From: a virus
Direction: 5' to 3' (one strand)
IMG/VR virus record: IMGVR_UViG_3300033145_000111
Coordinates: 1 to 48,433 of that record
DNA: 48,433 nt
Below the pieces are notes generated by a model. The model was not told the DNA's origin, did not search any database, and was given only the letters and a program-made list of their open reading frames with translations. The first letter of the stretch is position 1. Each line of letters opens with the position of its first letter. This document shows positions 115 through 45,872 of the stretch, in pieces. The position numbers were made by a program, and so were the translations under genes.

Positions 115-1196
115 ATTCCAACAGCTGTCATCTCAGCTTGACTCATGTTATTAGCGTCAGAGTTAATAGTGATAGCACCTTGAATCGTGCCGGTAGTGAC
201 GAGATTGATAGCACTAAAATCTAACTTAGTGACTCCTGTCGATGTTGAAATTACTACTGCGTTAGCCGTGTCATCAAAGTTAAGAGTTAGGTCCTCGTCA
301 TTACCATCGCCAAGCCCTAAAACCGTGATAGCCCCATCTCCGTCTCCTGTCAGTTTCACTCCGGCAGAGCCAAGAGAATAGGAAGCTAATCCGATAATAC
401 TGGCAACAGAGGTCCCAGACTTAAAGGAAACTGTATTTGCCGCCGACCCTACATGAATATCAAAGTCCTCATCGTTAGTCCCAAAGAAGGTAAACTCACC
501 AGAGGCGTACCCGAACTCTCCAACGGCATCCGGAGTTGTGTCGCCAAGGACTACCCCTCCAAGGCTCATAGCGCCAAGCCCGTCAAGGGTAACATTAGCT
601 CCAAGGCTGATCGTAGGATTATCCCCATTAGTAAAAGTCAGTGCATCCCGCCAGGTCGTGTTATCAACATCGTAGATTTGAAACTTCAGGGCATGAGCAG
701 TGGTAGTCGTGCTTACCCGGATGATACCGCCATCGGTCAAGAACAGATCGTCTAAGGTAGGCTGAGATACCCATGTTGGTGCACCTGCCCCGTTAGCCTG
801 AAGAAGATAATTGACTGTCCCAGCAGCTAACCATCCATAAGTATTATCAGCTGTGCCATAAAGTATCCCACCATTAGTTTCAGTCTGCCCAGAGATTGAT
901 GCTAAACCTGCACTATAGGCTTGAACATCAGTACCTATGATAAGACCTATATTCACACGAAGATCTGCTTCATTAGTGCTTCCTAATAGAGTAATTACAT
1001 CTGCTGAAGGCGTGATGCCTGCAAAGGTATCCAAGTCAGCGTCATATTCTTGAACATCAACTCCTATTTCTAGGCCTAATGAAGCAGCTGTTACCCCACC
1101 TCGTCCTACAGGTCCTCTACCATGAGGAGAAGCAAATGCTAAAGTACTAAATAACAAGACAATCAAGACCGTTAAATATTTAAACAATCTATTCAT
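1..1196 (-). CDS. Tail fibre/appendage protein with signal peptide (N-terminal part; continues at 48319)
   Basis: The frame is open leftward from an ATG at 1196 (GAGGTG just upstream) to base 1. Through the terminal repeat it continues to the stop at 48160, giving about 451 residues in all. Residues 1-22 look like a classical Sec signal peptide: basic start (R3, K6), a Leu/Val-rich core, and AFA before the predicted cut. The rest is a Gly/Asp/Thr/Asn-rich beta-strand protein typical of phage fibres, ending in a compact domain that resembles the small domain shared by the proteins at 38624 and 39439. It lies in the appendage locus with 45891-47393 and 47396-48157, and is probably part of a tail appendage or a secreted surface-acting protein. 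One copy of the genome-wide 25-bp dyad lies inside codons 3-10. The fibre role is inferred from composition and context. Confidence 0.72.
   Translation of the reverse strand, partial: MNRLFKYLTVLIVLLFSTLAFASPHGRGPVGRGGVTAASLGLEIGVDVQEYDADLDTFAGITPSADVITLLGSTNEADLRVNIGLIIGTDVQAYSAGLASISGQTETNGGILYGTADNTYGWLAAGTVNYLLQANGAGAPTWVSQPTLDDLFLTDGGIIRVSTTTTAHALKFQIYDVDNTTWRDALTFTNGDNPTISLGANVTLDGLGAMSLGGVVLGDTTPDAVGEFGYASGEFTFFGTNDEDFDIHVGSAANTVSFKSGTSVASIIGLASYSLGSAGVKLTGDGDGAITVLGLGDGNDEDLTLNFDDTANAVVISTSTGVTKLDFSAINLVTTGTIQGAITINSDANNMSQAEMTAVGMYGSAFFATGAGTYDLPAAVAGMSFILYSTGANAIIIN
1166..1190. repeat. 25-bp dyad repeat, copy 1
   Basis: Half-sites AGACCGTTAAAT and TTTAAACAATCT. Lies inside the first codons of the fibre gene starting at 1196. 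Confidence 0.85.
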
Positions 1197-1204
1197 GATA
1201 CACC

Positions 1205-1513
1205 TCACTTGTAATATGTAGCTATTACCACAGCGTCTTCTTGATCGACTGCAGCTATCATACGAAAGTTTTGAATTGAATGAGGATCTACTATATATAT
1301 GTTATCTCCAGAGACTACAAGATGACCGTCAACTGGAGCAACAATAGGGTCTCCTCCATCAATTCGATATCTAATGCTAGCATCTTCAATTGTTAAGAAG
1401 ATTGCATTAGAGTCAGCCCGATAAGTTGCATCTAGTCTTACGACTGCAAGGCTGGTAATAGTAAGTTTTTCATAATAGAAAGGAGTCCTGTCTAATTCTT
1501 GAGTATAGTTCAT
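1205..1513 (-). CDS. Hypothetical beta-rich phage protein
   Basis: The protein has 102 residues, with start ATG at 1513 preceded by GGAAGG, and a 25-bp dyad (1529-1553) just upstream of that site. No signal peptide or membrane segment is visible. It looks like a single beta domain of alternating hydrophobic strands (for example DNIYIVDP). It lies between the holin candidate and the signal-peptide-bearing fibre gene in the leftward late block, so a virion or appendage accessory role is possible. I do not recognise the family. Confidence 0.6.
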   Translation of the reverse strand: MNYTQELDRTPFYYEKLTITSLAVVRLDATYRADSNAIFLTIEDASIRYRIDGGDPIVAPVDGHLVVSGDNIYIVDPHSIQNFRMIAAVDQEDAVVIATYYK

Positions 1514-1528
1514 TGTAGCACCTTCCTT

Positions 1529-1553
1529 AGTTCGTTTGAAAATTGAACGGTCT
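1529..1553. repeat. 25-bp dyad repeat, copy 2
   Basis: Half-sites AGTTCGTTTGAA and ATTGAACGGTCT. Between the holin candidate stop and the ribosome site of the leftward gene at 1513. Confidence 0.88.
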
Positions 1554-1819
1554 TAGAAATCAAACCACTGTTTGACGTAGCCAGTAACCACTACAAATGC
1601 TCCACCGCCAAAACCTGATACTGAAGCAATAGCAGTGTCTTTTTTCCCTTTGTTTTTTATCTTATTAAACTTTCCTTTACATTCTTCAACTTGTGACTTA
1701 TGACAAGTTACCATCTCATCTATCCTTGCTCCCATGCTGTCTAACATGTCAAATGTTAGTGCCTTAGTTGTTTTCTCATCTGCGTTTACGTAGGTTTCTT
1801 TCTTCACTCCGTGACTCAT
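1553..1819 (-). CDS. Small C-terminal-membrane protein, holin candidate
   Basis: The chosen start is the ATG at 1819. It overlaps the terminase stop as ATGA and has GGAG upstream. The upstream in-frame ATG at 1831 lies inside the terminase gene and is less likely. The 88-residue protein has a charged, probably coiled N-terminal two thirds (Lys/Glu-rich, with the CHKSQVEECKGKF region) and one hydrophobic segment near residues 62-82 rich in Gly and Val. A short cytoplasmic coil followed by one C-terminal membrane helix is the layout of XhlA-type lysis proteins. The holin role is inferred from layout and position only; endolysin lies in the same block. Confidence 0.5.
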   Translation of the reverse strand: MSHGVKKETYVNADEKTTKALTFDMLDSMGARIDEMVTCHKSQVEECKGKFNKIKNKGKKDTAIASVSGFGGGAFVVVTGYVKQWFDF

Positions 1820-3357
1820 GCGTATCTCCAATTCTCGACGGCTGGTTCATAGTCGAGTTCTTTGTACTCAGAATCAATATCATTAGGGTCTTCCTTTGGA
1901 CTAAAGTATCGTTCGCCTAGTTCAAGCATCTCAATTATGTATGCAAAGCAATCCATTATGTCCCAGAGTGCTGAGCGTGGAAACATTAAGAGTTGCTGTT
2001 CAAGCTTTTTAACTGTAGCACATGAGGCGTTGTGATATATATAGCCACCTCGATAATAGGGAACAAGCTCCTTAACACGAAGCTCTTTCTTCATTCCACC
2101 ACGGGCTTTAAGCCAGACAAGTTCAAAGAACGACCCTCGACGAAACATCTCATTTTTAATAGGTTGCTTAATAAATTCATTGAGAGAAGTTTCCTCAATA
2201 CCAAGGACTTTTGCTCCTAGTCTCTGTCCCATACCAAACATAGCATCGTAGATCTCATCAGGGTAAAGTTTCTCTGATATAATGTCTCTGATATAAAGTT
2301 TAGCACTTGCAAGGTCTATGCCTACTCCGACAATAGCTGATTCAGCACTGTGAACTTTCACAGTCTTTGCAGGGTCAAGGATGACTACTGTCTCAATGTT
2401 ATTATCTTGCTGAACTTCAACATCGAGTTTCTTAAGATCATCTTCTGTTCCATGTCGTTCTGGAGGTAAGTTGTAATAGCGAAAGTAATCTTGGCGAAAG
2501 GCTGAATCTTTAGTTGAGATAGGTAAGTTACGTAGCTCACGAAAGAAGACATCTGTCTGTCCAGCGTCAACATGCTGCTGCCATTCCTTTTGAATATCTG
2601 CATTAGACATAAAGTCAGGAGCTGAGGATTTAAAGTTGTCGTCGCAAGCCTCGAGTCGTATTGAGTCCCACTCAGACGACTCAATTAGTTTTTGTAGCAC
2701 AGAGTCTTCATGCTTTAAAGTATCAATGTAGACTATTTTCCAATTTTTAGAGTTCTTCCCTATCCGTGGAATGGCTTTGATCACATCTGCATAAAGCCAC
2801 TCATACCAAGATTTACGAATCTCATCGTTGTTAATTTTTTGCGGGTCTTCAAGGTCGTCTATTACTATTAGCCCAGGGCGGTCATTCTTGAAAAGCACTC
2901 CACGGACTTGCTGCCCAGCACCACGAGGCCAGACTAATGTATCATAAGCGACCCAGGCTTTTTTGCTAAACGTTTCTTCGAACTCCTTAGCATTAACATC
3001 TCGATATTTGAAGTGGCCGAAGAAGGCTCTTATTTCTCTGTTGGTGACTAGTTCACGGCGTAAGTTTTCAGTCTGAAGCGAGGCAGCGTCATGACTTTTG
3101 TTTATGTAGCAGATGAATCCTGTGTGATGGAATAGGATGTAACGAGCCATTAGAGCAAGTGCTACGATTGAAGTCTTTCCCCAACCACGAGGTGCAGCGA
3201 TGGCAACCTTTTGTGCTGGTCCGTCTATGAGATCAAAGATCTTCCCATGCACAGATTCAGCAAAAGGAAGTTCAAAGCGCTCAGGGAAGAACGTTTTAGC
3301 AGTTGCTCGTGTTGAGAAGCTGCATTGAGTTAAGATTTGTTCTAAGTATTTATCCAT
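1816..3357 (-). CDS. terL: Large terminase subunit (DNA-packaging ATPase/nuclease)
   Basis: This 513-residue protein drives genome packaging into the prohead through the portal and cuts the concatemer. An N-terminal ATPase carries Walker A APRGWGKT (55-62) and a Walker B strand LIVIDDLED (163-171). The C-terminal RNase H-like nuclease shows its acidic residues in ILDPA (Asp328), GIEET (Glu388/389) and WDIMDCFAY (Asp469). Length and motif order are normal for the family. It starts 5 bases after the tail spike stop with no clear ribosome site, so it is probably translationally coupled. It is separated from the small terminase candidate by three genes. Confidence 0.95.
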   Translation of the reverse strand: MDKYLEQILTQCSFSTRATAKTFFPERFELPFAESVHGKIFDLIDGPAQKVAIAAPRGWGKTSIVALALMARYILFHHTGFICYINKSHDAASLQTENLRRELVTNREIRAFFGHFKYRDVNAKEFEETFSKKAWVAYDTLVWPRGAGQQVRGVLFKNDRPGLIVIDDLEDPQKINNDEIRKSWYEWLYADVIKAIPRIGKNSKNWKIVYIDTLKHEDSVLQKLIESSEWDSIRLEACDDNFKSSAPDFMSNADIQKEWQQHVDAGQTDVFFRELRNLPISTKDSAFRQDYFRYYNLPPERHGTEDDLKKLDVEVQQDNNIETVVILDPAKTVKVHSAESAIVGVGIDLASAKLYIRDIISEKLYPDEIYDAMFGMGQRLGAKVLGIEETSLNEFIKQPIKNEMFRRGSFFELVWLKARGGMKKELRVKELVPYYRGGYIYHNASCATVKKLEQQLLMFPRSALWDIMDCFAYIIEMLELGERYFSPKEDPNDIDSEYKELDYEPAVENWRYA

Positions 3358-3362
3358 AAGAT

Positions 3363-5798
3363 TTATAATATAGCGTAGTGTTTTCTATAGATTACTATGA
3401 CTAACATAGTAGTATCATTCCCAGCGTTCCCACCAAATTCTGCACCACCAGTGTTAAACAGTCGAATTGCTTTATTCCTTATACTGCTTGCAGCAGTTGT
3501 TCCAAGAGCTAAACCATTAGCCATTATTACATAGTTTGCATTTTTATCAATAAATCCTGTCATTTCGATAGCTGCTGATATATCAACTCCATTACTATAC
3601 TCAACAACCAGATTATCACCTGCTTCTGTCAGTACATTTGAACCGTAGTCTAGCATTAGAATAACTCTGACTAGTTCCAAATACCAGTATGTTCCAGCAG
3701 TTGCTACAAGTTCTTTTGGTGATGCACGTAAGTTTTTAATCTCATTGTTTGTTAGTGTGACTTTTTCTACGAAGTAATTATTACTGGTTTCATATACAGT
3801 TGGAGGTGCTCCAGTTATTAATATACTATCATACCAGTTATTTGCATTATGCTCAGACTCAAAAGGCGTAGTTACATTGTCCATAACTACTTTACCGAAG
3901 ATGTTCCCATAGGTAAGATCATTATCAATTCCTATAGTACAGAATGATAATGTGACATCTCCGATAACTGCACCTTTTCCAGATATTTTCATACCATAGT
4001 CCCACCTATCAGATGTATCATACCCAGTGATAAATAATTCTGGGAAGTAGGTAGGGAGGCTAGTCGCCGTATTCTGTATATAAGCACCAGCTGGATCTTG
4101 GGTACTTAAGGATGGATCAGCAGGATCAAATGGTGGGATTGTTATAGTATCACTTCCATGGATGTTTAGATTAAATGTAGAATAAGCATTATTATATGAT
4201 CTTAAGCCTCTCCAACCAACATTCTGGATTGTTCCAGAGACACTAGAATAAAATGTTCCTTTGATATCTATTCCTGTGTCTAGTACATTATTCATAGATA
4301 CATTATTTATATGGATACGTGAAATGTAGTTTGCAGTAGGATCATTGTGACCTATTTCTAAGCCACGAAGAACATTGTTAATCTTTGCATTATTTACAGT
4401 TACGTCTGTAATCATGTTGTTATAAGCACCAGAACAAGAAATGTCCATTGCTTGAGGGGAAAGCCCATCATCACCTACAAAGATAGGACTATTGACAGTG
4501 ATGTTGGAGATGTTTTGAAATGGGTCAGCTCCTAAAGTAGTATCTGTCTGAATCTGCATACCGGCTACTTGTACAGCAGTATGTATAATTGGATTGTTGA
4601 AAGTGATACGATTAGCATAGATAACATTTAGAGATCCTTGCCATGCTCGATAGCGGTTATCTGCTTCCGCCCCTCGTACATCAAGACAATGAAATATGCC
4701 GTCATTTACTACCACATCATGTGTTTGTCCTGTTGCGGCTCGAGGACCAAAAGTAACCATTCCGTTAAAGGTAGAAGAACTAAAATCATAGATCATGTTT
4801 GAGCCAGTAAATAATACTTCTTGATCACCATCAGCTCCAAATAGATAAGTTTTGCCTGGGGCGGTTTTAAAGGTATTGCCACCATTTTCAGAGACAGATG
4901 CAAGTGCTTCTTCAAATGCGTCCTCATCATCAGTTGTTCCATCTCCAATAACACCAAACCATTCTGGAAGGACAGGGTTTTTCATCCCTACTGGGAATGT
5001 AAGAGCACCTATCCCAGTAAAACTAAATATCTGATAATCTCCAGCCTCTATAGATAAACCTGCAGGGATGATTAAGTCTGTGCTTATTTCACTTGACGTA
5101 GAAATCTCTAATATTACTTCTTCATCCTCAACCCAAGTAACTATACTACGAAGACGGTTGAACCAGGAAAGTTTAAGTCTAGTGCCATCAAGAAAGTCAA
5201 GGTCTCCAGCACCTGAGAAGATTTGGTAATTTTCAGCTTCTATATTCTTGATGTTAGATATAGTATCACCAGCGTTAACTGTTATGATAAGAGGAGATTC
5301 CCAGCGGAGAGTTACGTCGTTGCCTACTGCCATGTCGTTAGTAGTTGTTTCAGCCTCAGAAATTACTATAGTTAAAGTATCATCAGAGGTTACGTCTAAG
5401 GCTTCGTCAAGGTCTGAGAACCATGAGGAGCGGATGACAGAGCCTGTTACAAAGTCAATGTCACCAGTACCTGAGAATATCTGTCGGTCAGCGTCTGCTG
5501 AGACATCAAGTGTGTTGATAGTTAATTGCCCTGAATTGTTAATAGCGCCATCTTTGACAAATCTAAGACGTACATTAGCAGGGATTGTTAAGGCTGTGGT
5601 TGTCTCTGATCTGGCAATGTAGAGAGTTTGGTTAGTAGCTCCTATGTCAGTTATGGCATCATCTATGGTTAAGTAAGCACGAGAATCAGTCCAGAGGCCA
5701 CTAGTCCCAGTCATTATTGCATCAGTCATGTAGGTTGTAGCTGCTACATTTAGTATTAGGGATAATGAAAGGAAGAGTAAAAGGAATAGTTTTTTCAT
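3363..5798 (-). CDS. Tail spike with signal peptide, three N-terminal repeats and a pectate-lyase-like beta-helix
   Basis: The protein has 811 residues. It starts at 5798 with GGAGG eight bases upstream and a dyad copy (5808-5832) beyond that. Residues 1-20 form a typical Sec signal (KK, then a long Leu/Ser core, VAA). Three related modules follow, marked QIFSGTGDIDF (106-116), QIFSGAGDLDF (192-202) and QIFSFTGIGALTF (256-268), each followed by SWF or EWF. From about 279 the EWFGVIGDGTTDD signature opens a pectate-lyase-3-type right-handed beta-helix with many NN/VN strand turns up to about residue 650. Such proteins bind or cleave surface polysaccharide. The signal peptide is odd for a virion spike. 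It could also be an exported depolymerase. Confidence 0.85.
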   Translation of the reverse strand: MKKLFLLLFLSLSLILNVAATTYMTDAIMTGTSGLWTDSRAYLTIDDAITDIGATNQTLYIARSETTTALTIPANVRLRFVKDGAINNSGQLTINTLDVSADADRQIFSGTGDIDFVTGSVIRSSWFSDLDEALDVTSDDTLTIVISEAETTTNDMAVGNDVTLRWESPLIITVNAGDTISNIKNIEAENYQIFSGAGDLDFLDGTRLKLSWFNRLRSIVTWVEDEEVILEISTSSEISTDLIIPAGLSIEAGDYQIFSFTGIGALTFPVGMKNPVLPEWFGVIGDGTTDDEDAFEEALASVSENGGNTFKTAPGKTYLFGADGDQEVLFTGSNMIYDFSSSTFNGMVTFGPRAATGQTHDVVVNDGIFHCLDVRGAEADNRYRAWQGSLNVIYANRITFNNPIIHTAVQVAGMQIQTDTTLGADPFQNISNITVNSPIFVGDDGLSPQAMDISCSGAYNNMITDVTVNNAKINNVLRGLEIGHNDPTANYISRIHINNVSMNNVLDTGIDIKGTFYSSVSGTIQNVGWRGLRSYNNAYSTFNLNIHGSDTITIPPFDPADPSLSTQDPAGAYIQNTATSLPTYFPELFITGYDTSDRWDYGMKISGKGAVIGDVTLSFCTIGIDNDLTYGNIFGKVVMDNVTTPFESEHNANNWYDSILITGAPPTVYETSNNYFVEKVTLTNNEIKNLRASPKELVATAGTYWYLELVRVILMLDYGSNVLTEAGDNLVVEYSNGVDISAAIEMTGFIDKNANYVIMANGLALGTTAASSIRNKAIRLFNTGGAEFGGNAGNDTTMLVIVIYRKHYAIL

Positions 5799-5807
5799 AT
5801 TGCCTCC

Positions 5808-5832
5808 AGATTGTTTATAATTTAAACGGTCT
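5808..5832. repeat. 25-bp dyad repeat, copy 3
   Basis: Half-sites AGATTGTTTATA and TTTAAACGGTCT. Directly before the ribosome site of the tail spike gene (5798). Confidence 0.88.
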
Positions 5833-5838
5833 TTGGTG

Positions 5839-7346: not shown

Positions 7347-7371
7347 AGACCGTTCAATTTTTAAACATACT
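7347..7371. repeat. 25-bp dyad repeat, copy 4
   Basis: Half-sites AGACCGTTCAAT and TTTAAACATACT. In the divergent control region, upstream of the leftward promoter. Confidence 0.85.
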
Positions 7372-8383: not shown

Positions 8384-8408
8384 AGTTCGTTTAATATTTA
8401 AACAAACG
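8384..8408. repeat. 25-bp dyad repeat, copy 5
   Basis: Half-sites AGTTCGTTTAAT and TTTAAACAAACG. Between the terminator at 8346 and promoter 2. Confidence 0.8.
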
Positions 8409-8796: not shown

Positions 8797-9357
8797 ATGA
8801 GTAGGGAAATTAAGCAGGAGGCAAGCGTACCGGTGCAGAGTAGAGTTGACCTGGTTAGCTTAGCGGAGTTAAGTATTTACTGGGAGAGCATAGGGCATGA
8901 GATAAGGACGATGAGTCAGTTGGTGTCGTGGAGTATTAGTCTGATGTGTGAAGTGCTCAGGGCAAATGATAAGATGCCAGTTACAGTTGAGTCAGTGAGT
9001 GAGGCTAATAACTATATGAGAGAGAAGGGATTGTATCAAGATAGTATGAAAAAGAGGAGTGTGAAGAAGATTAGCAATGCGATTGCATTTGAAAGCTTGA
9101 GGAATGAAGGAATAGATCCTAAGAACTATGTACCTCAGCAGTATAATATAGTGCATAATAAGAATAGTGTAGAGGTCATAGAGCCTGAGGTGAGAGTAGG
9201 AGATAGAGGAATGGGAGGAGACGGACAAGGAAAGTATTTAGGAGAACTAACAGAAGCTATGAAGAGGAGTAAGGAGGAAGGAGAGAGGGAATTTGAGGAG
9301 ATGAAGAAAGTTACGCTTGAATCATTGATAGAGTCAGGAGCTATTGTTAAGGAATAG
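8797..9357 (+). CDS. Unknown early protein with purine-rich coding strand
   Basis: The protein has 186 residues, with ATG at 8797 preceded by AAAGGAGGAGGG. It has an N-terminal helical region, a basic middle (MKKRSVKKI), a Gly-rich linker (RVGDRGMGGDGQGK) and a C-terminal charged helix rich in Glu/Lys. The coding strand is strongly enriched in A and G, with AGG/AGA used for nearly every Arg. Its neighbours do not show this, so it may have a different origin. I do not recognise the family. It is alone between promoters 2 and 3. Confidence 0.72.
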   Translation: MSREIKQEASVPVQSRVDLVSLAELSIYWESIGHEIRTMSQLVSWSISLMCEVLRANDKMPVTVESVSEANNYMREKGLYQDSMKKRSVKKISNAIAFESLRNEGIDPKNYVPQQYNIVHNKNSVEVIEPEVRVGDRGMGGDGQGKYLGELTEAMKRSKEEGEREFEEMKKVTLESLIESGAIVKE

Positions 9358-9380
9358 TGCGTTTAAATTTTAAACGGACT
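9356..9380. repeat. 25-bp dyad repeat, copy 7
   Basis: Half-sites AGTGCGTTTAAA and TTTAAACGGACT. Overlaps the stop codon of the gene ending at 9357. Confidence 0.9.
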
Positions 9381-10189: not shown

Positions 10190-10486
10190 ATGACTACCAT
10201 TCTCGGAGAACACATCTCGGTAATCAAACCTTCTACACCTTATTCATGCAAGGTGTATAAGAATGAACTTCCCACGCCTAAATATCCTATAAAAACCTAC
10301 CGTTCCAAGACAATCAAGAAACACTCAGGGAAAGTTATCGCTATTGCTGTTAAGTTATATAGCGGAGGGATTAGATCTATTCTCAGAGGGACTCACGCAG
10401 ATGTGCTTGAGGATTTTAGTATTAACCCTAAAGATGTAGTAAGTGTGGGATGGGAGTTAGATAATGGTAACTTTGTATGGAGATAA
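10190..10486 (+). CDS. Hypothetical early protein
   Basis: A 98-residue basic protein with GAGGAAAC before the ATG at 10190. The N-terminal half is Lys/Pro-rich (YRSKTIKKHSGK), followed by a compact beta-type segment (VIAIAVKLYSGG). No family is recognised. A dyad copy begins at its stop codon. Confidence 0.62.
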   Translation: MTTILGEHISVIKPSTPYSCKVYKNELPTPKYPIKTYRSKTIKKHSGKVIAIAVKLYSGGIRSILRGTHADVLEDFSINPKDVVSVGWELDNGNFVWR

Positions 10487-10510
10487 GTTTGTTAATTTAT
10501 TAAACAATCT
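10486..10510. repeat. 25-bp dyad repeat, copy 8
   Basis: Half-sites AGTTTGTTAATT and ATTAAACAATCT. Fills the gap before the GGAGG of the gene at 10523. Confidence 0.82.
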
Positions 10511-12020: not shown

Positions 12021-12045
12021 AGTTCGTTTAAATATTAAACGAAAT
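12021..12045. repeat. 25-bp dyad repeat, copy 9
   Basis: Half-sites AGTTCGTTTAAA and ATTAAACGAAAT. Upstream of the gene at 12067. Confidence 0.85.
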
Positions 12046-14116: not shown

Positions 14117-14539
14117 ATGTCTAAACTATACTACTGTGCTAACTGCGGTCAGCGCTTAAGTGTCGTAAGAAAATCCCTACCCAAATATGGGACTATTATC
14201 GAACTAATCGAAGCCCACGAATGTCTTGATGAACCTATTGAGTTCGATCTTACTCCAATTAAGCCTACTCTTCGTATAAAAGACAAGAGTAAGACCAAGT
14301 TCGTTCAAAATTTAAACCAACTTAATCCTAAACCAGTAGTTACGCATCTCGATATCGAAAGTGATGCCACCAATCTTGATCGAGACAGAGGAGGTCGTGT
14401 AGAGCTCAAAGACCGCAGATCAAAAGAGTCTATTAAGACCTCAGCTCCATCCTCCCTCCTTGACCAAATAAAATCTATCGAAAACTCTATTCCTGTAGGT
14501 AATATAAACTCTGAGCCGGATGGTATGGAAGGAGACTAA
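14117..14539 (+). CDS. Zinc-finger-containing conserved phage protein
   Basis: A 140-residue protein. The N-terminus has YYCANCGQRL (CxxC) and a later HEC (34-36) that could complete a zinc site. The middle is Pro/Thr-rich, and the C-terminus is charged and probably disordered. Proteins with this layout are common, uncharacterised members of early regions in environmental phages. A dyad copy lies inside the coding sequence (14298-14322). A regulatory or polymerase-binding role is speculative. Confidence 0.7.
   Translation: MSKLYYCANCGQRLSVVRKSLPKYGTIIELIEAHECLDEPIEFDLTPIKPTLRIKDKSKTKFVQNLNQLNPKPVVTHLDIESDATNLDRDRGGRVELKDRRSKESIKTSAPSSLLDQIKSIENSIPVGNINSEPDGMEGD
14298..14322. repeat. 25-bp dyad repeat, copy 10 (intragenic)
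   Basis: Half-sites AGTTCGTTCAAA and TTTAAACCAACT. Lies inside the coding sequence of 14117-14539. Confidence 0.8.
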
Positions 14540-25601: not shown

Positions 25602-25626
25602 AGTTCGTTTAATAAATAAACAATCT
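25602..25626. repeat. 25-bp dyad repeat, copy 14 (convergent junction)
   Basis: Half-sites AGTTCGTTTAAT and AATAAACAATCT. It alone fills the gap between the converging gene blocks. Confidence 0.88.
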
Positions 25627-28600: not shown

Positions 28601-31585
28601 TTCCTTCATAGACATACGAAGTCTTTCTTCAACAAGTCTACTATCCATCTCACCTAGACTTGTAAGAGTCTTAAATCTAGCCTCAGATTTGATAGGAAAG
28701 GACATTGAATTAGCTAAGCCTTCTGACTCAGTCTTTTTTACAAAAGGGATTAAATCATCCCAAAACCAATCTATATCTGATTGATCCTCTAATTTATCAT
28801 TCAGTAAATCTTCCATCCTTTCAGTTTCTTTTCTTACTTTTTTCTTTGTATCCTGATATCTTGATTTATCAACTAACTCTTTAAGCCTTCCAACTATAGT
28901 CTGAACATCCCCTCTTATTCTAACTTGATTTATGTCTGCACCCTTAGGTCCACCAAGTTCTTTATTTACTGCATGCTGAACTTCATGAAATAGTGTTTGT
29001 CTAGAAAAAGTACTAAACACTATTATATTTGAGTTCCGTAGATAATAGTTACCAATAGCATGTTTATCAAATTTAACTTTTGTATTTTTTAGGTTAGGTA
29101 CTGCATCATAAAGTTCTTTATATAATAGTAAGTCTGGTAACTTTTTAACTGTTGTTTCACCAAAAGATAACTCAATCCCAGTCTTAAATTCCTTATATAT
29201 AGCCTTACTATCATCTAATTCAAATCTCCACTTGCCATCCTTTCCAAGCCAGAATCCTGTTTTATCAAATACTTTTTTATTTCTAAATAGCTTACCAAAT
29301 TTAATATCCTTAACACCTTTGAATATATCCTTTACAAGTCCAGGAACTTTGTCTAAAGGAATCATCATATTTAGGTCAATAGTTGGTTTCTCAGTCGGTT
29401 CAATTTTTAAACGGTCTGCTTTTTTACCAAGTATATCATTCCATCTATCTTCCAGTGGTATAGCCTCTTCAAAGGTAGATCTTTTTGATATAGGTTTTTC
29501 AGTTCCTATCATACTATTATACAATTTCATAGATGTATCAGTAGACAGTGTATTAGTAATAGGGTCTGATATATCTAATCTATAGTTAACTATACCTCTA
29601 GTACCAGATACTATATTAGTCTCAAACTTTAAGACCTCAGTTGAGGCACCTAATTTTTTAGCTAATAGTTTTAATTCTGCTTTAGTAGGTATTTTTCCAG
29701 CAGCATCAAAACTTAGATATACCTCACTCCCTTTTCTATTAGCTGATACTAAGATAGGTTTCTCTAATATAGGATCTAGTGATAATCTATCTGCTTTCCT
29801 TGCCCAGTTAGCTGCCTCTGAAACTACCTCCTTCCAATTCTCAAAGTTAAGTGGGAAGTCTTCCATACTTATAAAGTGATCCCTAACTTCCTCTGCCCTA
29901 GACGCTAATTCACTAAGTGCATTCCTTACTTTATCAATAGGTATCTCCTCTCCATCAAGCCACCTATTAACATCATTGACTAATTTGTTAGTATACATCT
30001 CAGGATCTTTAGCTATGTTTTTAACCCGTTGTTCATAAGTCTCAGCCATTAACTTTGTTTTCTCTGGAGCTTCACGAAAGGGAGAGTTTTCTGTAGATAA
30101 TTCAATAGGCTCACGTGTTCCAGTTTGAAGATCTATGTTGGTAATAGGTTCTTCCTTAGGCACCTGCTCCAATGATTCCCTAAACAACTGTCCCTTTGTA
30201 GCCTCTACCAATGAAGCATTTAATCTCTTCGTAATGTCAGCCTTAGTCTCACCTTTGACTTTCTCCCTCAACCCCTTTGACTTAGCAAGTGACTCCTCAC
30301 GTAGACGTTTAAGCTTAGTGACTTGCTCAGATGTAGCAACTTTACCAAATGCTTCAGCTTGTTCAGTTGATTTAAATTCTGGGATTGGTTCCTTAGCATT
30401 AACCTTAATCCTCTCCATAGCCTTATCAACCTGTACATCAACTATGTCCCTACCAGCTTGCTTAATCTTCTTAATCTGTGTAGTCTTAGAACTTAAATCA
30501 TCCTTAATCATCTTTCCATAATCAAGGCTCTTTTGATTTCTATCAGACTCAAGAGCAGCTTGTCTCTTCTGCATGTCTAGAATTTTCTGCTGTGCTTCTC
30601 TATACACATCATCAGAGAGAGTATTAACTTCTTCTTGAGCCTTTTCCAGTTCATCTATCTTAGCCTCAGAAGCCTTAGCATCTACATAGTCTTTAGTCTC
30701 CCTATAGCTTTCACCTACATTTCTCTTTGATAATGCTTCCTTTCTCCACACAGGATTATCATACATCCTTATTAACTGTCCTTCAGTCATGTTAGGATTC
30801 TTCTGCATGGTCTCAGCAAGACTCTGAACAACTAAGGCTCTCTCCTTTATTGTCAAGTTTCTAAATGTAGTAGACTCTCTTAGCCCTTTAATAACTCTAG
30901 GCAGAGCAAATATTGCAGATGCCTCACCATAAGTAGCTAATAGTGGTTCTAGGAAAGTAGGCTCAAGACCTAATTCCTCCAATCCTGCATTAATCCTATT
31001 ACCTATCAGTCTCCATCCCTCACCTGCCATTTGAATAGGTTTCATGACAAGCATTAGGTTCTCAACTGCTTCAGCCTCTTCTGGTGTAGTAATTAATTTA
31101 GAAGGTATACTCATTACTTTACTAAATATATCCATAGCAGAATCTAAACTACCGGGTTGGATAAGTTTATTAGGATCAGTACTTATAGTTGGAATAAGCC
31201 CTGCTAACCCAGCTATTCCAGCTACAGGAAATGTTAGCAATGATCCACCTACAGCTGCTGTAACCTTACCTATTGCCTTTAAAGTAGGAGCAACTAACTT
31301 ATTCCCAAATCCTTCAGAGTAAGCTTCACCTGATGCATCTAGTGGTCGACCAAGCTCATCCCATTTTCCTGGAGGCTGAGGCATTAAGCTTGTTCCACCT
31401 GGCCGATCATAAAGTCCAGCAGAATGAAGCTTATCAGATCTATCCTCAGTTCTCAATCCCTCAGCTATCTCACTAACATTAAGGATCTTATCTACAGGAA
31501 TAATCTCTCCAAGCATAGTATCATGAAGAGACTTTGATCCCTTAACCTCTCCAAGCATAGTACTAAACAAATCTTTATTTGGCAT
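25625..31585 (-). CDS. Giant polyvalent virion protein (internal/ejected), HExxH protease-like motif
   Basis: The protein has 1986 residues and is the last gene of the leftward block. Visible parts: an N-terminal region with repeated TMLGE motifs (about residues 9 and 23), hydrophobic stretches near 90-130, long charged coiled coils (about 290-470), an HEVQH zinc-metalloprotease-like motif at 867-871, and a C-terminal half with KLLTHGLG...RTLAVST resembling the large polyvalent domain LPD38. Very large multi-domain proteins here in short-tailed phages are packaged and injected with DNA. A dyad copy lies inside it (29393-29417). Its start overlaps the next gene upstream. Confidence 0.82.
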   Translation of the reverse strand: MPNKDLFSTMLGEVKGSKSLHDTMLGEIIPVDKILNVSEIAEGLRTEDRSDKLHSAGLYDRPGGTSLMPQPPGKWDELGRPLDASGEAYSEGFGNKLVAPTLKAIGKVTAAVGGSLLTFPVAGIAGLAGLIPTISTDPNKLIQPGSLDSAMDIFSKVMSIPSKLITTPEEAEAVENLMLVMKPIQMAGEGWRLIGNRINAGLEELGLEPTFLEPLLATYGEASAIFALPRVIKGLRESTTFRNLTIKERALVVQSLAETMQKNPNMTEGQLIRMYDNPVWRKEALSKRNVGESYRETKDYVDAKASEAKIDELEKAQEEVNTLSDDVYREAQQKILDMQKRQAALESDRNQKSLDYGKMIKDDLSSKTTQIKKIKQAGRDIVDVQVDKAMERIKVNAKEPIPEFKSTEQAEAFGKVATSEQVTKLKRLREESLAKSKGLREKVKGETKADITKRLNASLVEATKGQLFRESLEQVPKEEPITNIDLQTGTREPIELSTENSPFREAPEKTKLMAETYEQRVKNIAKDPEMYTNKLVNDVNRWLDGEEIPIDKVRNALSELASRAEEVRDHFISMEDFPLNFENWKEVVSEAANWARKADRLSLDPILEKPILVSANRKGSEVYLSFDAAGKIPTKAELKLLAKKLGASTEVLKFETNIVSGTRGIVNYRLDISDPITNTLSTDTSMKLYNSMIGTEKPISKRSTFEEAIPLEDRWNDILGKKADRLKIEPTEKPTIDLNMMIPLDKVPGLVKDIFKGVKDIKFGKLFRNKKVFDKTGFWLGKDGKWRFELDDSKAIYKEFKTGIELSFGETTVKKLPDLLLYKELYDAVPNLKNTKVKFDKHAIGNYYLRNSNIIVFSTFSRQTLFHEVQHAVNKELGGPKGADINQVRIRGDVQTIVGRLKELVDKSRYQDTKKKVRKETERMEDLLNDKLEDQSDIDWFWDDLIPFVKKTESEGLANSMSFPIKSEARFKTLTSLGEMDSRLVEERLRMSMKERKKNPPWETLDKMLMDERIPKIFGTKLYTGLPLDEAAKQLKKLSDLFKKKKPGKPIDLSKVPVEYRKTVKLAQEYEKSFVDSEEAKKFNFKHFLNRAGFSTYHAVHEKSGLLRNKLKKDYGADGYRVVQYTDAERASDGFAGVLYNRMFDEAYKGMSSKLDPIINRINQVERLTDIFGYKTAKEYTTPQGMTPEHAAAFSELIELTKGLTPEEYIQAKKASDIIFEHHKLWIDELVKSGLKSKEEGELLKAHSYRKMKKFTVESVFDEESKISVGEKVVRQNDSGVDRLGKGSFDMLETDTKALSHELAARIAGRVKNNDMKTVWWDFVEKHPDNPFCWVSGLKDSEGVKIHAPSGWVKDHRYIDGKKSEMRWHPDVATQILTRGGEISFWLTKLLTHGLGIHATRTLAVSTSAAWAMSRGITMDVAHTFFSARSFEPDAKGVVLKPSFPFVEVREGVHKRLYSALPPVFVKQLGADMNNVAVDVFTRGPKTQAYEESGGHMPFLTQRENQMFGKGLRMPNRYEKMLDGMSWIGKSSELWNRVAVMERRLKQLAKKRGITLDEAYKNKEMIMEAVNVAAERLPYAQGGWLVKSIDKIFGPFISASYNAKRTMWRAASENPADFAARLASIGSAAVGVTLAAILLAEEADRDVPEYVHNRNVVVYPFGDFFKFQDEEGNDRWFYFKLPLDPDTAFFYNVFRGMTKKLAYEAGLTKREPNYDAIIGSLKSTYPMESPLSPSVRAWVDYTTSYSTWRDRKIQSDEDTFNWPKSTIEGRFDPRVSQLAKDVGGLTGLSPKRLEAAVPNIIPSGNEYVYIMGKLYEQAFNEVDPKERSQHWALTLSKIPFIKSFMGVTIPRAYRMAGREEIREDVEFDRYIRVNKLDALAEGFHWKGSGTEAAIDEHIDQYENDWEVESMEKKVEFIITIKDLPNRRSWSSMFGSSPEAKAKDFYDIKKVLSSSEQEGLEDELTILEESGYTSQRFYDELSRLEEE
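29393..29417. repeat. 25-bp dyad repeat, copy 15 (intragenic)
   Basis: Half-sites AGTCGGTTCAAT and TTTAAACGGTCT. Inside the giant polyvalent protein gene. Confidence 0.82.
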
Positions 31586-33622: not shown

Positions 33623-33647
33623 AGACGGTTTAATTTTTAAACGGTCT
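33623..33647. repeat. 25-bp dyad repeat, copy 16
   Basis: Half-sites AGACGGTTTAAT and TTTAAACGGTCT. Overlaps the end of 33637-34089, upstream of the leftward gene at 33606. Confidence 0.88.
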
Positions 33648-36741: not shown

Positions 36742-36766
36742 AGATCGTTTATTTTTTAAACGGACT
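36742..36766. repeat. 25-bp dyad repeat, copy 17
   Basis: Half-sites AGATCGTTTATT and TTTAAACGGACT. Upstream of the leftward adaptor gene (36728) and fused to the hairpin after the capsid gene. Confidence 0.88.
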
Positions 36767-38591: not shown

Positions 38592-38616
38592 AGTTCGTTT
38601 AAAATTCAAACGAACT
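38592..38616. repeat. 25-bp dyad repeat, copy 18 (near-perfect palindrome)
   Basis: Half-sites AGTTCGTTTAAA and TTCAAACGAACT: one mismatched pair in twelve. Upstream of the leftward gene at 38575. Confidence 0.92.
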
Positions 38617-39375: not shown

Positions 39376-39428
39376 CGTGGGAAGGCTGGTCAGGAACCAG
39401 CTTTTCAGGGCATGCTCCCTATCCCACG
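39376..39428 (-). ncRNA. Intergenic three-way-junction RNA element
   Basis: An outer stem CGTGGGA (39376-39382) with TCCCACG (39422-39428) encloses two hairpins: GCTGGT (39385-39390) with ACCAGC (39396-39401), and AGGG (39407-39410) with CCCT (39417-39420). It lies in the 95-base gap between two leftward genes and has no T run. It may be a processing, stability or cis-regulatory element, or a weak terminator. Confidence 0.55.
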
Positions 39429-39438
39429 AAAGACATAA

Positions 39439-40962
39439 TTACACAACTGCATTATAAAGGGCCAACCAGCGTGTTCCACTAGGAGTTCTAACCTTTACCC
39501 ACTCCTCAACATTAACAGGGGCACCACCCTGATGGTCATACCACATTTTAGCTGCTCCACTTGCAAATCCCACAAGGTCAAACAATGCAGCATCATCATC
39601 TACGTCAACTACCCCAGTAGCATCTCCACCATTGACTATACGGAGAAAGCTCAGAAGCGACCCAGATGGGTCTGAGGCTGCTCCATCAGACCATAACTCA
39701 GCCTGAATAGCAGCCATTGTTCCTGCCTGAGTTCCCTGATTTGCAATATGAAGCGTAGCCCTCATAGCAACTCCAAGACCAGTTACAGTCCCTGTAGCAC
39801 CAAAGTTTAGTGAAATATGTGCTCCATGAACAGTTCCACAAGCTACATCTTCAACAGTGCTAAAGATTCGAACAGCCTCACCACCTCCACCAGCACCAGT
39901 AAGATACTGACGTAGATACATACCTCTGTTGTCGCCTGAAGTAGCACCATTATCAAGATAGAATGACATAAACTTCATGTTGGCCACATCCTGAACTATT
40001 CTAGCAGCAGAAGTACCAGCTTTAATTAAGCCTCCGCCTGTATTCTCCCCTGATACACCAAATAAAAGAGCATTACCAGTAATATCTCCAGCTCCAATCA
40101 TTATACCAGTTACCATTGGGCTTTCAAGAGATATTCCATTAGTAATGATACCTGTAGTCAACATACGTAAGCCATAAGTAGCTACAGTATTAGCTCCTGT
40201 AAATGTAGTATCAAGAATCTTAATGTATTCATCAAGAAGAGTTCCAGCACCAAATTTCTCATGTTCGAGAACTAAGCATCTATATGCACCAGTAGGCTGT
40301 ACAGAGGTTTTGACTCGAATATGAGCACCATACATAGATTGAATTAATGTTGGGGTGCCTTCGGAATCAGCAGCAACCATAAGACCACGCATAATGGTTT
40401 CAACTGAAGCACCGTCCTTAGCTATAGCTTCACAATAAGCAGCATTAATAGTAGCTGTAAACAGATCAGCATAAGCAATGCCCTGAGCATGAACGCCATA
40501 GCAAGCAGGGCCAGACCCTGTGTCAGCTTTGTGACCTTCAGACCTAAACCTACCAGCAACAATCTCACCTGAAATTCCAGCTGCCTGAGTATAAGATCCT
40601 CTTGCACTAGCTTCAATCTCAATATCAGCAAAGGTCCTGCCCATCCACTTCAATCCATCAGAGTAGAACAACTGACCACCACCAGTTTCAGTTAATCTAA
40701 TATCGCCTTCCCACTGTTCACTGTCATCCTTATCTTGGATAACAATGTTATGAGTCATGTCAGCATCTCTGGCAATAATAGAATACCATCTACCTTTTGC
40801 TTCCACAACAGATGGAAGGGTTATAGTTAAGTCACCTAGAATATCACTTGAATCTGGACGCATGACATAGTCGCGAGTAGTCATCTGATAATCTGCAACA
40901 GGGGCTGCATACTTATCAGGCACCTCACGGTAATGCTGTTCGTTATTTTGCTCAAGTCCCAT
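39439..40962 (-). CDS. Head fibre or appendage structural protein
   Basis: A 507-residue protein with GGAGGTAA before the ATG at 40962. The N-terminal ~105 residues repeat the domain of 38624-38998 (YQMTTRDYVMRP, LPSVVEAKGRWYSI, FYSDGLKW). A long Gly/Ala/Thr-rich beta region follows, with repeated short phrases such as ATYGLRMLTTG. This suits a fibre with a virion-binding head. It lies between the scaffold-like and capsid genes, so a head-associated fibre is plausible. Confidence 0.7.
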   Translation of the reverse strand: MGLEQNNEQHYREVPDKYAAPVADYQMTTRDYVMRPDSSDILGDLTITLPSVVEAKGRWYSIIARDADMTHNIVIQDKDDSEQWEGDIRLTETGGGQLFYSDGLKWMGRTFADIEIEASARGSYTQAAGISGEIVAGRFRSEGHKADTGSGPACYGVHAQGIAYADLFTATINAAYCEAIAKDGASVETIMRGLMVAADSEGTPTLIQSMYGAHIRVKTSVQPTGAYRCLVLEHEKFGAGTLLDEYIKILDTTFTGANTVATYGLRMLTTGIITNGISLESPMVTGIMIGAGDITGNALLFGVSGENTGGGLIKAGTSAARIVQDVANMKFMSFYLDNGATSGDNRGMYLRQYLTGAGGGGEAVRIFSTVEDVACGTVHGAHISLNFGATGTVTGLGVAMRATLHIANQGTQAGTMAAIQAELWSDGAASDPSGSLLSFLRIVNGGDATGVVDVDDDAALFDLVGFASGAAKMWYDHQGGAPVNVEEWVKVRTPSGTRWLALYNAVV

Positions 40963-40969: not shown

Positions 40970-41821
40970 TTACCTCCCTAGAGTTTGGCTCATCTCGTCT
41001 AGCTCATTGAGAAGAGCGTCTGTTTTTGGTTTAGTTGAACTGCTTCCAGCCTTACCTTTATTTCCATGAAGTTTTGGAGGAGTATTATTTTTAGCAGGAG
41101 TAGCTTTTACAGCCTCCTTCTTCAACTCAAGCCGAGTACGTACTTCTATAGCAACATCTCCAAGGATCTCAGTATATGTCTTATCAGGATTGTCGCTTTG
41201 AAGTTCCTCAAAGACTGCACCAACAACTTTCTTAAAAGGTTTAAGATCCTTGTTCTCGTCATAGAAGTCATCTTTGGCTTTTTTTAGGTTAGAGATAGTT
41301 ACAATGTTAGCTTTAACAATATCAGGAATTGTTCGCAAAACACCTTCACCTAATGTCTTACGAGTGTCATTAGCTGCCTGTAGATAGACCTTGTTTAATA
41401 GCTTGTTAAACTCAGTAGGGTCACGAGTAACCTCGTCGAGATCAAGATCACCAATAAAGTCTTGTTCAGTTAGTTCTGTCTCTACTACTGGATCTGGCTC
41501 AGGCTCAGCTTTTGGCTTAGGAACTTCTGCAAGTTTAGCTCGAAGAGACTCATTTTCTTCACGTAGTTCCTTTTCCTTCTCAGTCTCAGTAGGTTCAATA
41601 GGCTCCACTGGTTCTACAGGCTCTATAGGCTCTATAGGTTCAACTGGCTCCACAGGGTCATCTGGATCTACCGAATCTACCGGATCTATTGGCTCCACAG
41701 GTTCGACAGGTTCAATAGGGTCATCAACTGGATCATCAACTGGCTCCTCCAACCCTTCGCTAAAAGATTTATTCATCATCTCCACATCAGTCTGTATTTC
41801 CTCTTTCACTTCATCTCCCAT
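40970..41821 (-). CDS. Probable scaffolding protein with acidic EPVEP repeats
   Basis: A 283-residue, strongly acidic and helical protein. Residues about 25-80 consist of tandem EPVEP/EPIEP/DPVD units, likely rigid and extended. A coiled segment with EKEKELREENESLRAKL follows, and a Lys-rich C-terminus (KLHGNKGKAGSSSTKPK) ends in a short helix. An acidic helical body with a basic C-terminal capsid-binding tail, between portal and capsid genes, is the scaffold layout. GGAGG precedes the ATG at 41821. Confidence 0.75.
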   Translation of the reverse strand: MGDEVKEEIQTDVEMMNKSFSEGLEEPVDDPVDDPIEPVEPVEPIDPVDSVDPDDPVEPVEPIEPIEPVEPVEPIEPTETEKEKELREENESLRAKLAEVPKPKAEPEPDPVVETELTEQDFIGDLDLDEVTRDPTEFNKLLNKVYLQAANDTRKTLGEGVLRTIPDIVKANIVTISNLKKAKDDFYDENKDLKPFKKVVGAVFEELQSDNPDKTYTEILGDVAIEVRTRLELKKEAVKATPAKNNTPPKLHGNKGKAGSSSTKPKTDALLNELDEMSQTLGR

Positions 41822-41834
41822 TTTGCTAACCTCC

Positions 41835-41859
41835 AGTATGTTTAATTTTTAAACGGACT
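41835..41859. repeat. 25-bp dyad repeat, copy 19
   Basis: Half-sites AGTATGTTTAAT and TTTAAACGGACT. Upstream of the scaffold-like gene (41821). Confidence 0.87.
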
Positions 41860-44557: not shown

Positions 44558-44565
44558 CTTAACTC

Positions 44566-45219
44566 CTAATTCTTATATTCCATATAGGCTTGGTATAGGT
44601 CAAATATATTAGCTACGTCAGCACTTGCCCATTCAACAGTTAAAGTCACATCCATGTTTGCTGTAGTGTTTACATTAACAACTGCAATTATCTCAAGCTC
44701 TGTAGTATCTACTTGTGCATGCATATGCATTGCTCTTGGATCAGCAATACCTCCAATAGCCCTCTGTGTAGCATTTGCATCTATATGCCAATAAGCATTT
44801 GTCATGCCTCCAGCAACAGGGCTTAGTGTAGCTTTTGTTACTCCACCTACTTTAATTCTCAATGTAACTCGATGAGCTGGTGCAGCCCCAGCATTACTTA
44901 CAACACCATCTGCGTGAAACTTAAATACATTTCCTACAGCCAGACTACCAGCATCCATAGTGGCCGTCCAGATAGTTGTTTCAACTCCAAGGGCTGTATT
45001 CTCAGCTGTGACAGTTGTTTCAACTACATCACTTGTTCTATCAATAGATCTCTGATGAGCTATGTTAGTAATATAAAAACGACTGTCTGCAAACTCTATA
45101 TTACCAGTCTCCGGGATAGAACGAAGAATTGTAGATAAAAGTTTCAAATCTAATACAGATAAAGACCCATCTTCGTTAAGTCTAGGATACATATGTCCTG
45201 GAATTATTCTCTTTCCCAT
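44566..45219 (-). CDS. Tail appendage protein, beta-sandwich type
   Basis: A 217-residue protein. A short helical N-terminus leads into a strand-rich domain (TTIWTATMDAGSLAVGN, RVTLRIKVGGVTKATL) of the kind found at fibre tips or as carbohydrate-binding modules. It follows directly after the 45219-45605 gene. Role inferred. Confidence 0.62.
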   Translation of the reverse strand: MGKRIIPGHMYPRLNEDGSLSVLDLKLLSTILRSIPETGNIEFADSRFYITNIAHQRSIDRTSDVVETTVTAENTALGVETTIWTATMDAGSLAVGNVFKFHADGVVSNAGAAPAHRVTLRIKVGGVTKATLSPVAGGMTNAYWHIDANATQRAIGGIADPRAMHMHAQVDTTELEIIAVVNVNTTANMDVTLTVEWASADVANIFDLYQAYMEYKN

Positions 45220-45605
45220 TATGCTAAGAACCCAAATACGTCAATAGTTGCAGTGCAAGCTGCATTTGATCCAGTGTTTACATAGATGCCAAACACAGAA
45301 GTTGCAGCACAGTCTGTGTATTTAGTAACGTCAGCACCTTTAATTTCCATAAAGTCAGTGGCTAGTGTAGTCATACTTGAGAGATCAATGGTCTGTCTCC
45401 ATGTGTCGCAAAGAGCTCCAGTACCAAAGTCATAGTCTGTACCTCCAGTCATTGAGGCAGAAGGTTCCCTGATGACTACAGCTGTTGGATAGAATGTTTT
45501 TCCATCTGGGACAGTAAAGAGATCAGTCTTTGCTGCAGCAGTTTTCATATCTACTCCAGCAACTGAGGCTACTTTAGTTATTGCATTTTCTTTTAAATAA
45601 GGCAT
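45219..45605 (-). CDS. Small beta-structured virion protein
   Basis: A 128-residue protein with the phrase TDLFTVPDGKTFYPTAVVIR seen in small fibre-associated phage proteins. It is Thr/Ala-rich, with a C-terminal strand pair. The ribosome site is weak (GGA), so translation may depend on the gene before it. Adjacent genes overlap by one base. Confidence 0.6.
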   Translation of the reverse strand: MPYLKENAITKVASVAGVDMKTAAAKTDLFTVPDGKTFYPTAVVIREPSASMTGGTDYDFGTGALCDTWRQTIDLSSMTTLATDFMEIKGADVTKYTDCAATSVFGIYVNTGSNAACTATIDVFGFLA

Positions 45606-45613
45606 ATTAAGTC

Positions 45614-45847
45614 CTATATATAAACTACATCACCATCAAAGCAAATTACATTACCTTCAAATGTAACTATGGTACCAATAAAAGCTGCAAATAGTTCCCC
45701 TAAATCATTTAATCGCAAGACGTCATTTCCATCTATAGGAGTCCCACATTTGATAGGGGCTAATGTTTCAATAGCAGAATCATAATCTCCATCATCATAC
45801 TGATGAATGTTTATTAGACTGCCTATTCTTATCTGTACTGTTGCCAT
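45614..45847 (-). CDS. Small virion-region protein with no visible ribosome site
   Basis: A 77-residue acidic beta protein (MATVQIRIGSL start). The ATG at 45847 directly abuts a 25-bp dyad copy (45848-45872), and no Shine-Dalgarno sequence is present. Either the start is wrong or initiation is unusual. Contents suggest a small OB- or SH3-like domain. Not recognised. Confidence 0.5.
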   Translation of the reverse strand: MATVQIRIGSLINIHQYDDGDYDSAIETLAPIKCGTPIDGNDVLRLNDLGELFAAFIGTIVTFEGNVICFDGDVVYI

Positions 45848-45872
45848 AGTTTGTTTAAATTTTAAACGGTCT
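45848..45872. repeat. 25-bp dyad repeat, copy 20
   Basis: Half-sites AGTTTGTTTAAA and TTTAAACGGTCT. Directly abuts the ATG of the leftward gene at 45847. Confidence 0.88.

Follow-up and report, generated by a model that had tools for sequence, protein, structure and literature searches.

The OB sites of plasmid RK2 are palindromes that occur at about a dozen places on the plasmid. As operators of KorB, they lie 4-10 bp or 45 to more than 1,000 bp upstream of the target promoters (PMC11790492). In ParB, R173 is reported as a tested specificity residue, and R173Q is among four changes that switch recognition from parS to NBS (PMC7383237). Fusions of a ParB-CTPase fold with an N6/N4 methyltransferase are described as commoner in phages than in bacteria, with a role that is left open and for which anti-defence has been suggested (PMC12704722). 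Here we describe a family of dispersed 25-bp palindromes in IMG/VR record IMGVR_UViG_3300033145_000111, one phage contig of 48,433 bases (48.4 kb) that was analysed over its whole length and is called the window below, together with a ParB_N-helix-turn-helix-methyltransferase protein of the same phage that may bind them. In open-licence PubMed Central, no literature on the DNA sites of ParB-type methyltransferases was found by title or abstract start, and none was found on dispersed palindromes in phages. The domain pair is already known; what is new is a predicted site and a helix-turn-helix (HTH) proposed to read it.

A symmetric scoring matrix of 25 positions, trained on 18 copies, gave 19 sites in the window, namely the training copies and 10486-10510, with scores of 23.6-35.7 bits. 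The best place outside the sites scored 2.2 bits, and in 50 first-order Markov shuffles of the window the maximum was 3.6 bits on average and 11.3 at its highest. Each site is an odd palindrome with a single central base, AGWYCGTTTAAA-N-TTTAAACGRWCT. A preliminary description of this DNA had listed about 20 such palindromes; the matrix scan bears out the family, its coordinates and its description, with 19 copies instead of 20. The two refuting tests named there did not refute it: the 25-mers are not as frequent in shuffled sequence (highest 11.3 against 23.6 for the weakest site) and the motif is kept in relatives at similar density. The slight asymmetry along transcription that it had noted holds in the window, where the 14 co-directional sites contain 15 A-C and 2 G-U mismatched pairs, and is weaker across 30 contigs (178 A-C against 127 G-U in the sense strand of 223 co-directional sites).

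Relatives were found in viral contigs by a terminase search (52 loci) and a profile search (best 80 of 166). Thirty contigs from the first search and 19 more were taken, each scanned with its own matrix. The first set comprises 338 sites in 30 contigs including the window, at 2.3-6.3 sites per 10 kb; a 31st contig, G006, was dropped when seed finding failed, and the 338 seem to include some false positives (one in G017 and one in G020). The second set has 2.6-4.6 sites per 10 kb in 16 of its 19 contigs. With the AG..CT seed, G044 yielded two sites and G048 and G045 none; a wider search gave 8-9, 16 and 9, respectively, and in G048 and G045 the outer letters are replaced by CT..AG. Among named relatives, Desulfofustis phage MD01, which occurs in pink-berry samples, is the closest (terminase 46% identical). 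It has nine sites built on the same 25-bp plan with a different sequence, RCTATGTCCCAA-N-TTGGGACATAGY; the weakest of them scores 31.8 and the best other place 5.8. The site sequence differs between phages, and the copies of one genome change together. Palindromes and fusion gene occur together in all 20 records of 42 kb or more (19 IMG/VR contigs including the window, and MD01), with 9-22 sites per record. Half-sites of the AGWTAATTAAAT type are seen throughout the subgroup of G038, G042 and G047 (with G011, G012, G016 and G046); G038 and G042 also have no site in the 6-kb gene described below, as though the set had been remade.

A degenerate form of the pattern matched 63 stretches in 2.9 million viral contigs. 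Two of these were earlier terminase matches, and the 61 new loci, several of them from contigs that also served as references, all code for proteins of this phage group. In the viral contigs searched, the pattern is confined to this group. In 84,980 bacterial and archaeal genomes there were 12 matching stretches, of which two lie in phage contigs of one sulfur-cave metagenome-assembled genome (MAG) and the remaining ten are without a homologue of the phage group; a scan of the same genomes for host prophages found no close terminase relative. The two small contigs of the sulfur-cave MAG, L211 and L215, belong to the phage group; the MAG is labelled Brevinema andersonii, which is either a hint of the host or a binning error.

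The placement of the sites was assessed against gene calls from a simple caller made for this analysis. In the window, 14 of the 19 sites lie between genes of the same direction, one is divergent (7347), one convergent (25602), and three are within called genes (14298, 29393 and 1166). Seven of the 14 (1529, 9356, 10486, 17723, 21520, 33623 and 41835) overlap the stop-codon end of the upstream gene by 1-11 bases. Across the first set, 254 of the 338 sites are intergenic (223 co-directional, 21 divergent and 10 convergent), 76 are in called genes and 8 are at contig edges, while intergenic DNA makes up 9.2%. In short gaps the site often begins on the stop codon and finishes about 9-25 bases ahead of the start codon; many sites directly precede a ribosome site, and some directly follow a terminator-like sequence. 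Particular orthologous junctions either keep the site or lack it. A site is present at the orthologous junction before gene 40970-41821 in 18 of 24 cases, before the family of 45219-45847 in 19 of 23 and before 32719-33606 in 12 of 15; three other orthologous junctions are without it (0/27, 0/24 and 0/22). The in-gene site of the 6-kb gene (25625-31585) occurs in 18 of 20 contigs and that of the small gene 14117-14539 in 23 of 29, and such sites are rare in the ParB-methyltransferase gene (2/27) and the polymerase gene (2/25). In most relatives the palindrome at 14298-14322 reads in frame as a conserved peptide, K-F-V-x-x-L-N-x-L, so the protein of 14117-14539 and its DNA site may constrain each other. 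Four of the six contigs that lack this site carry the A5A6-type site.

The sites are also spread along the genome. In 17 of 20 near-complete genomes they are spaced more evenly than under random placement (P<0.05), the largest gap between sites is at most 7.9 kb in all 20, and in a comparison with random gene junctions P<0.05 was obtained in 9 of 13 contigs. In gaps that contain a site, 47 of the 56 gene-facing promoter-like sequences (matches to a sigma70-like consensus) have the site upstream, against 34.6 expected for random places in the same gaps; none of 5,000 simulations reached 47. For 39 promoter-like sequences the site lies 40-200 bp upstream, against 22.2 expected. The near-copies G005, G006, G011, G022 and G023 were removed from the promoter tests, as they were from the 11-genome window tests and the kinship-corrected tests below.

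The candidate binder is a fusion in which Pfam recognizes ParB_N (PF02195, 3.6e-09) and N6_N4_Mtase (PF01555) over their cut-offs, with weak HTH matches below cut-off (HTH_23 at 0.026 for the window protein, HTH_ParB at 0.04 for that of MD01). GERR (aa 60) and ENFFRKD (aa 96) can be read as nucleotide-binding boxes II and III. ParB structures match aa 11-192 by sequence, and Noc matches aa 11-159; in a Foldseek comparison of the predicted fold with the PDB, Noc (7nfu) is best, followed by ParB and, lower, KorB (8qa8). In the model, the HTH is made up of helices 137-143 and 149-164.

The fusion varies with the site, most clearly in the HTH. When windows of 24 columns within the fusion were compared with site distance in 11 genomes, the maximum fell over the HTH (r 0.65), with -0.13 to 0.14 over the first ~60 residues and up to 0.49 in the methyltransferase part. 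In 23 genomes, left from 28 after de-duplication at 93% identity, r was 0.57 for the HTH (128-165; Mantel p 0.0005), 0.46 for ParB_N and 0.30 for the methyltransferase. The fusion residues that track site bases 5-7 are mostly in the HTH; the ranking for base 7 says little, since this base varies in essentially one genome. For base 6, among 9,722 columns in the alignments of the tested families (nine near-copies removed), aa 136 of the fusion ranks 2nd, aa 144 3rd and Lys149 18th. Of 29 proteins (26 different ones without the HTH), 23 have Lys at residue 149, and in these the frequency of G at site base 6 is 0.83-1.00; the other six have Asp, Gly, Asp, Pro, Pro and Gln, G042 being one of the two with Asp, and they are exactly the six with the lowest G frequencies (0.00-0.80). 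On a fusion-protein tree made without the HTH, the Lys149 label requires four changes, three of them forced by starred branches. In our alignment, which relies on the S-[KR]-x-x-[VI] pattern and on the distance to N178/Gln154, Lys149 appears to correspond to ParB R173.

From the operators of KorB and the scattered sites of Noc, we therefore propose that the palindromes are loading sites for a methyltransferase-bearing clamp, that is, docking sites similar to parS, OB or NBS for the phage's own ParB_N-HTH-methyltransferase protein. We give this reading about an even chance of being correct. The ParB-type domain would dock as a dimer with one HTH per half-site and, by analogy with ParB, Noc and KorB, would form a closed clamp in a nucleotide-dependent manner and leave the site by sliding along the DNA; with 9-22 loading sites per near-complete genome and gaps of at most 7.9 kb, clamps could spread over the phage genome. 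The outcome might be a KorB-like damping of promoters downstream of the sites, or the delivery of the methyltransferase along phage DNA; both promoter damping and genome-wide methylation are compatible with the proposal. Dimer binding, clamp loading, sliding, repression and methylation are steps that we infer. A more specific version, a self-targeting methylation machine in which the clamp-methyltransferase loads at about 20 spread phage-specific sites, slides and modifies the whole phage genome, is on present grounds doubtful. In such a machine, concerted shifts of HTH and site between related phages would keep each enzyme on its own genome.

Several observations weigh against the docking-site proposal. 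Promoter-like sequences are not commoner in the window than in shuffles (63 vs 57.6; 39 vs 54.5), so some of them are chance matches. The structural model has modest confidence (mean pLDDT 56.8, with blocks of 53-85 in aa 1-190), Foldseek TM-scores of the ParB-type hits are low (0.18-0.28 by query length), and the 25-bp site is longer than NBS and OB (16 bp). The top column for site base 6 belongs to the primase, and the best columns of the fusion lie outside the recognition helix for bases 8 and 10-12 and mostly so for bases 3-4 and 9. The Lys149 rule was derived from all genomes jointly and not predicted blind, and its margin is narrow (0.80 in G025 against 0.83 in G053, which has three sites); of three independent starred-branch contrasts, too few for a test, two agree and one misses the 0.75 threshold. 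A Thr/Ser/Ala code for site base 9, drawn from the first set, was rejected after exceptions in the new genomes G031, G051 and G053, and the proposal does not account for the replacement of AG by CT at the outer positions in G048, G045 and MD01.

Other proteins correlate with the site as well. In the 11-genome windows, values went up to 0.84 in the DNA polymerase, 0.67 in the 6-kb virion protein and 0.66 in the protein of 14541-14834. The last of these, which is Pam3_gp32-like (PF23992; plus strand), came first in the kinship-corrected whole-protein test (0.49, p 0.012, 41 tests), with the fusion second (r 0.29, p 0.10). In the 23 de-duplicated genomes, with MD01 and G048 included, many core proteins correlated at whole-protein level, with 0.71 for the primase, 0.68 for 14541-14834, 0.66 for the portal and a Sak4-like protein and 0.44 for the fusion; the HTH window had the top partial value, 0.50, and others reached 0.46. 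With such distant genomes included, the core proteins correlate with the site through kinship, and whole-protein distance tests do not single out a binder. The case therefore rests on the position of the signal, in a protein of a palindrome-binding family, and on the match to a known specificity residue.

Other phages also supply counter-examples. Mel-JY34 and VS-ABTNL-3 encode full-length fusion homologues, the latter with ParB_N below cut-off, and show no convincing palindrome family; MW202489, with a full-length fusion, yields only loosely similar places and no such family. In the cultured distant relatives VS-ABTNL-3, Mel-JY34, Kuura, PaP2 and Tiera, only 4-8 loosely similar places were found, which we judged to be chance. 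Parageobacillus phage JGon-2020a has a full-length fusion match and, instead of dispersed palindromes, clustered repeats with a 12-bp spacing. These repeats, similar to TAATGTTATCGATAATATTA, form three clusters on its record (L331; ~37532-37587, 40043-40080 and 41563-41630), the nearest about 0.3 kb from the fusion gene, and are possibly the clustered counterpart of the dispersed sites. Erysipelothrix phage phi1605 is a further phage that encodes a full-length fusion.

The preliminary description had left four options for the palindromes: binding sites of a phage regulator of the stoperator kind, parS-like sites, phage-specific promoters, and processing sites in mRNA leaders. Sites for a parS-like or regulatory protein fit best, because the lead candidate has a ParB-type domain and the sites lie upstream of promoter-like sequences. 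That protein could also be a different phage DNA-binding protein, such as those of 8797-9357 and 19750-19992, which look ribbon-helix-helix-like in our reading of their sequences (Pfam has no such match); the sites would then be operators that silence or time transcription in the fashion of stoperators. The sites do flank promoter-like sequences, and several conserved small early proteins are without an assigned role. The protein of 19750-19992 is shared with MD01, absent from the five palindrome-free cultured relatives and correlated with the site once distant genomes are included (0.48), but its raw value in the first set is -0.11 and its predicted DNA-facing strand is near-constant; the protein of 8797-9357 is uncorrelated throughout (raw 0.02; with distant genomes, -0.01 for the whole protein and 0.19 for the best window). 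We regard this explanation as rather unlikely. Stoperators in the strict sense are disfavoured, the sites being palindromic, all 16 contigs searched being without a tyrosine integrase or the ParA family tested, and MD01 being predicted strictly lytic (PMC10370329). Lysogeny is itself unlikely on the last two of these grounds, with tyrosine integrase PF00589 in 0 of 16 contigs (serine integrases were not searched). A ParABS partition system, with the palindromes as its centromere-like sites, would make sense of the ParB-type domain and of several sites per genome; it is nonetheless highly improbable because ParA (PF13614) was found in 0 of 16 contigs (control 14/14; other ParA families were not searched), and the integrase result and the lytic prediction speak against it too.

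The remaining two options are disfavoured too. Promoters of a phage-encoded or phage-modified RNA polymerase would suit the many sites just ahead of a ribosome site and those directly after a terminator-like sequence, but the sites are palindromic, copies also occupy convergent junctions (10/338) and gene interiors (76/338), the sites have sigma70-like sequences downstream of them, and a T7-type polymerase (PF00940) was found in 0 of 16 contigs, though the control for that search matched nowhere; we take this option to be very unlikely. RNA hairpins serving processing or mRNA stability could likewise stand between stop codon and ribosome site, where many copies lie, and good copies are near-perfect inverted repeats. 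Selection on RNA pairing would favour G-U over A-C, so the excess of A-C mismatches over G-U pairs in the sense strand given above runs against it, as do the convergent and in-gene copies, and a role as hairpins seems extremely unlikely. Two other candidates were rejected. The 1,986-aa protein was considered as an N4-like virion RNA polymerase and dropped, as the polymerase patterns looked for matched there only in short chance stretches and Pfam recognizes a large-polyvalent-protein domain. The protein of 6619-7221 was rejected as a binder; it matches the MD01 protein annotated as terminase small subunit, and its distance correlation is unremarkable (r 0.11 in the kinship test set; 0.47 with distant genomes). 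The terminase pair is split in the window (1816-7221), with an 811-aa gene without PHROGs match and two small genes in between.

If the docking-site proposal is right, clamp loading at dispersed sites would extend from chromosomes and plasmids to seemingly lytic phages. The phage group offers, for a little-understood kind of protein, a predicted DNA target that is present in 9-22 natural copies per near-complete genome; since dozens of relatives, including several whose site sequence is shifted, and named residues are at hand, the role of the fusion becomes testable.

Features of the window, with matrix scores in bits for the palindromes
Feature	Position	Strand	Remarks
Palindrome copy 1	1166..1190		score 29.6; near 5' end of an open reading frame that reaches the contig edge
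Palindrome copy 2	1529..1553		score 32.4; between genes 1553-1819(-) and 1205-1513(-)
Palindrome copy 3	5808..5832		score 31.8
Palindrome copy 4	7347..7371		score 29.9; divergent control region; centre 173 bp upstream of the rightward promoter-like -35 and 76 bp upstream of the leftward one
Palindrome copy 5	8384..8408		score 30.8; past terminator-like hairpin 8311-8340; 106 bp upstream of promoter-like sequence 8502-8530
Palindrome copy 6	9356..9380		score 35.7; 91 bp upstream of promoter-like sequence 9459-9487
Palindrome copy 7	10486..10510		score 23.6, weakest copy
Palindrome copy 8	12021..12045		score 31.6; past terminator-like hairpin 11948-11979
Palindrome copy 9	14298..14322		score 33.5; within gene 14117-14539
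Palindrome copy 10	17723..17747		score 31.2
Palindrome copy 11	18429..18453		score 34.6
Palindrome copy 12	21520..21544		score 33.5; end of ParB-methyltransferase gene, ahead of DNA polymerase gene
Palindrome copy 13	25602..25626		score 30.2; occupies convergent junction
Palindrome copy 14	29393..29417		score 32.3; within 6-kb gene 25625-31585
Palindrome copy 15	33623..33647		score 33.4
Palindrome copy 16	36742..36766		score 33.3
Palindrome copy 17	38592..38616		score 35.3
Palindrome copy 18	41835..41859		score 32.0
Palindrome copy 19	45848..45872		score 35.6
Predicted ParB_N - helix-turn-helix - N6/N4 DNA methyltransferase fusion, 441 aa	20205..21530	+	Pfam; ParB/Noc structure matches
Predicted ParB_N domain, aa 20-93	20262..20483	+	GERR at aa 60
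Predicted helix-turn-helix, aa 137-164	20613..20696	+	model helices; second helix from Lys149
Predicted methyltransferase domain, aa 232-426	20898..21482	+	DPPY at aa 237

Two further features of the window are recorded here. The Rfam int-alpA RNA (RF02996) matches 39362-39429 on the minus strand with 39.2 bits, against a gathering threshold of 35.8; the match sits between two leftward late-region genes, and the name suggests another setting. At ~18254-18412 on the plus strand lies a sequence that resembles tRNA-Leu, with acceptor ends that match (CTGGCAG ... CTGCCAGCA) and about 70 extra internal bases, for which ARAGORN and Rfam made no call; it is possibly an interrupted or remodelled tRNA. 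In G009 a similar tRNA-like 3' end stands ahead of a palindrome.

Among known systems, KorB with its OB sites shares with the present case the ParB-type fold, as seen in the Foldseek match to 8qa8, and differs in the length of the site (16 bp against 25 bp). KorB is not known to carry a methyltransferase. Its sites are described as lying upstream of target promoters (PMC11790492); the palindromes lie upstream of promoter-like sequences that are consensus matches. Noc and NBS are similar in the ParB-like fold, which is the best fold match (7nfu), and in sites reported to be scattered around the chromosome (PMC8429893), whereas NBS is 16 bp long and Noc binds the membrane. The phage fusions of a ParB-CTPase fold and an N6/N4 methyltransferase in the PNAS 2025 survey have the identical domain pair; the available part of that survey does not name a DNA site (PMC12704722), whereas the present work proposes both a site and an HTH to read it. 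The stoperators of Cluster A mycobacteriophages are likewise dispersed, and distances between their motifs track those between repressors, but they are described as 13 bp long, asymmetric, mostly in one orientation to transcription and a property of temperate phages (PMC6550527). In Cluster K, SAS and ESAS are dispersed repeats that lie just upstream of gene starts and are kept at orthologous genes, as are the palindromes; ESAS, which are inverted repeats of 17 bp, vary from phage to phage, whereas SAS, unlike the sites described here, are reported as 13 bp long, asymmetric, limited to the right half of the genome and of unknown function (PMC3203893).

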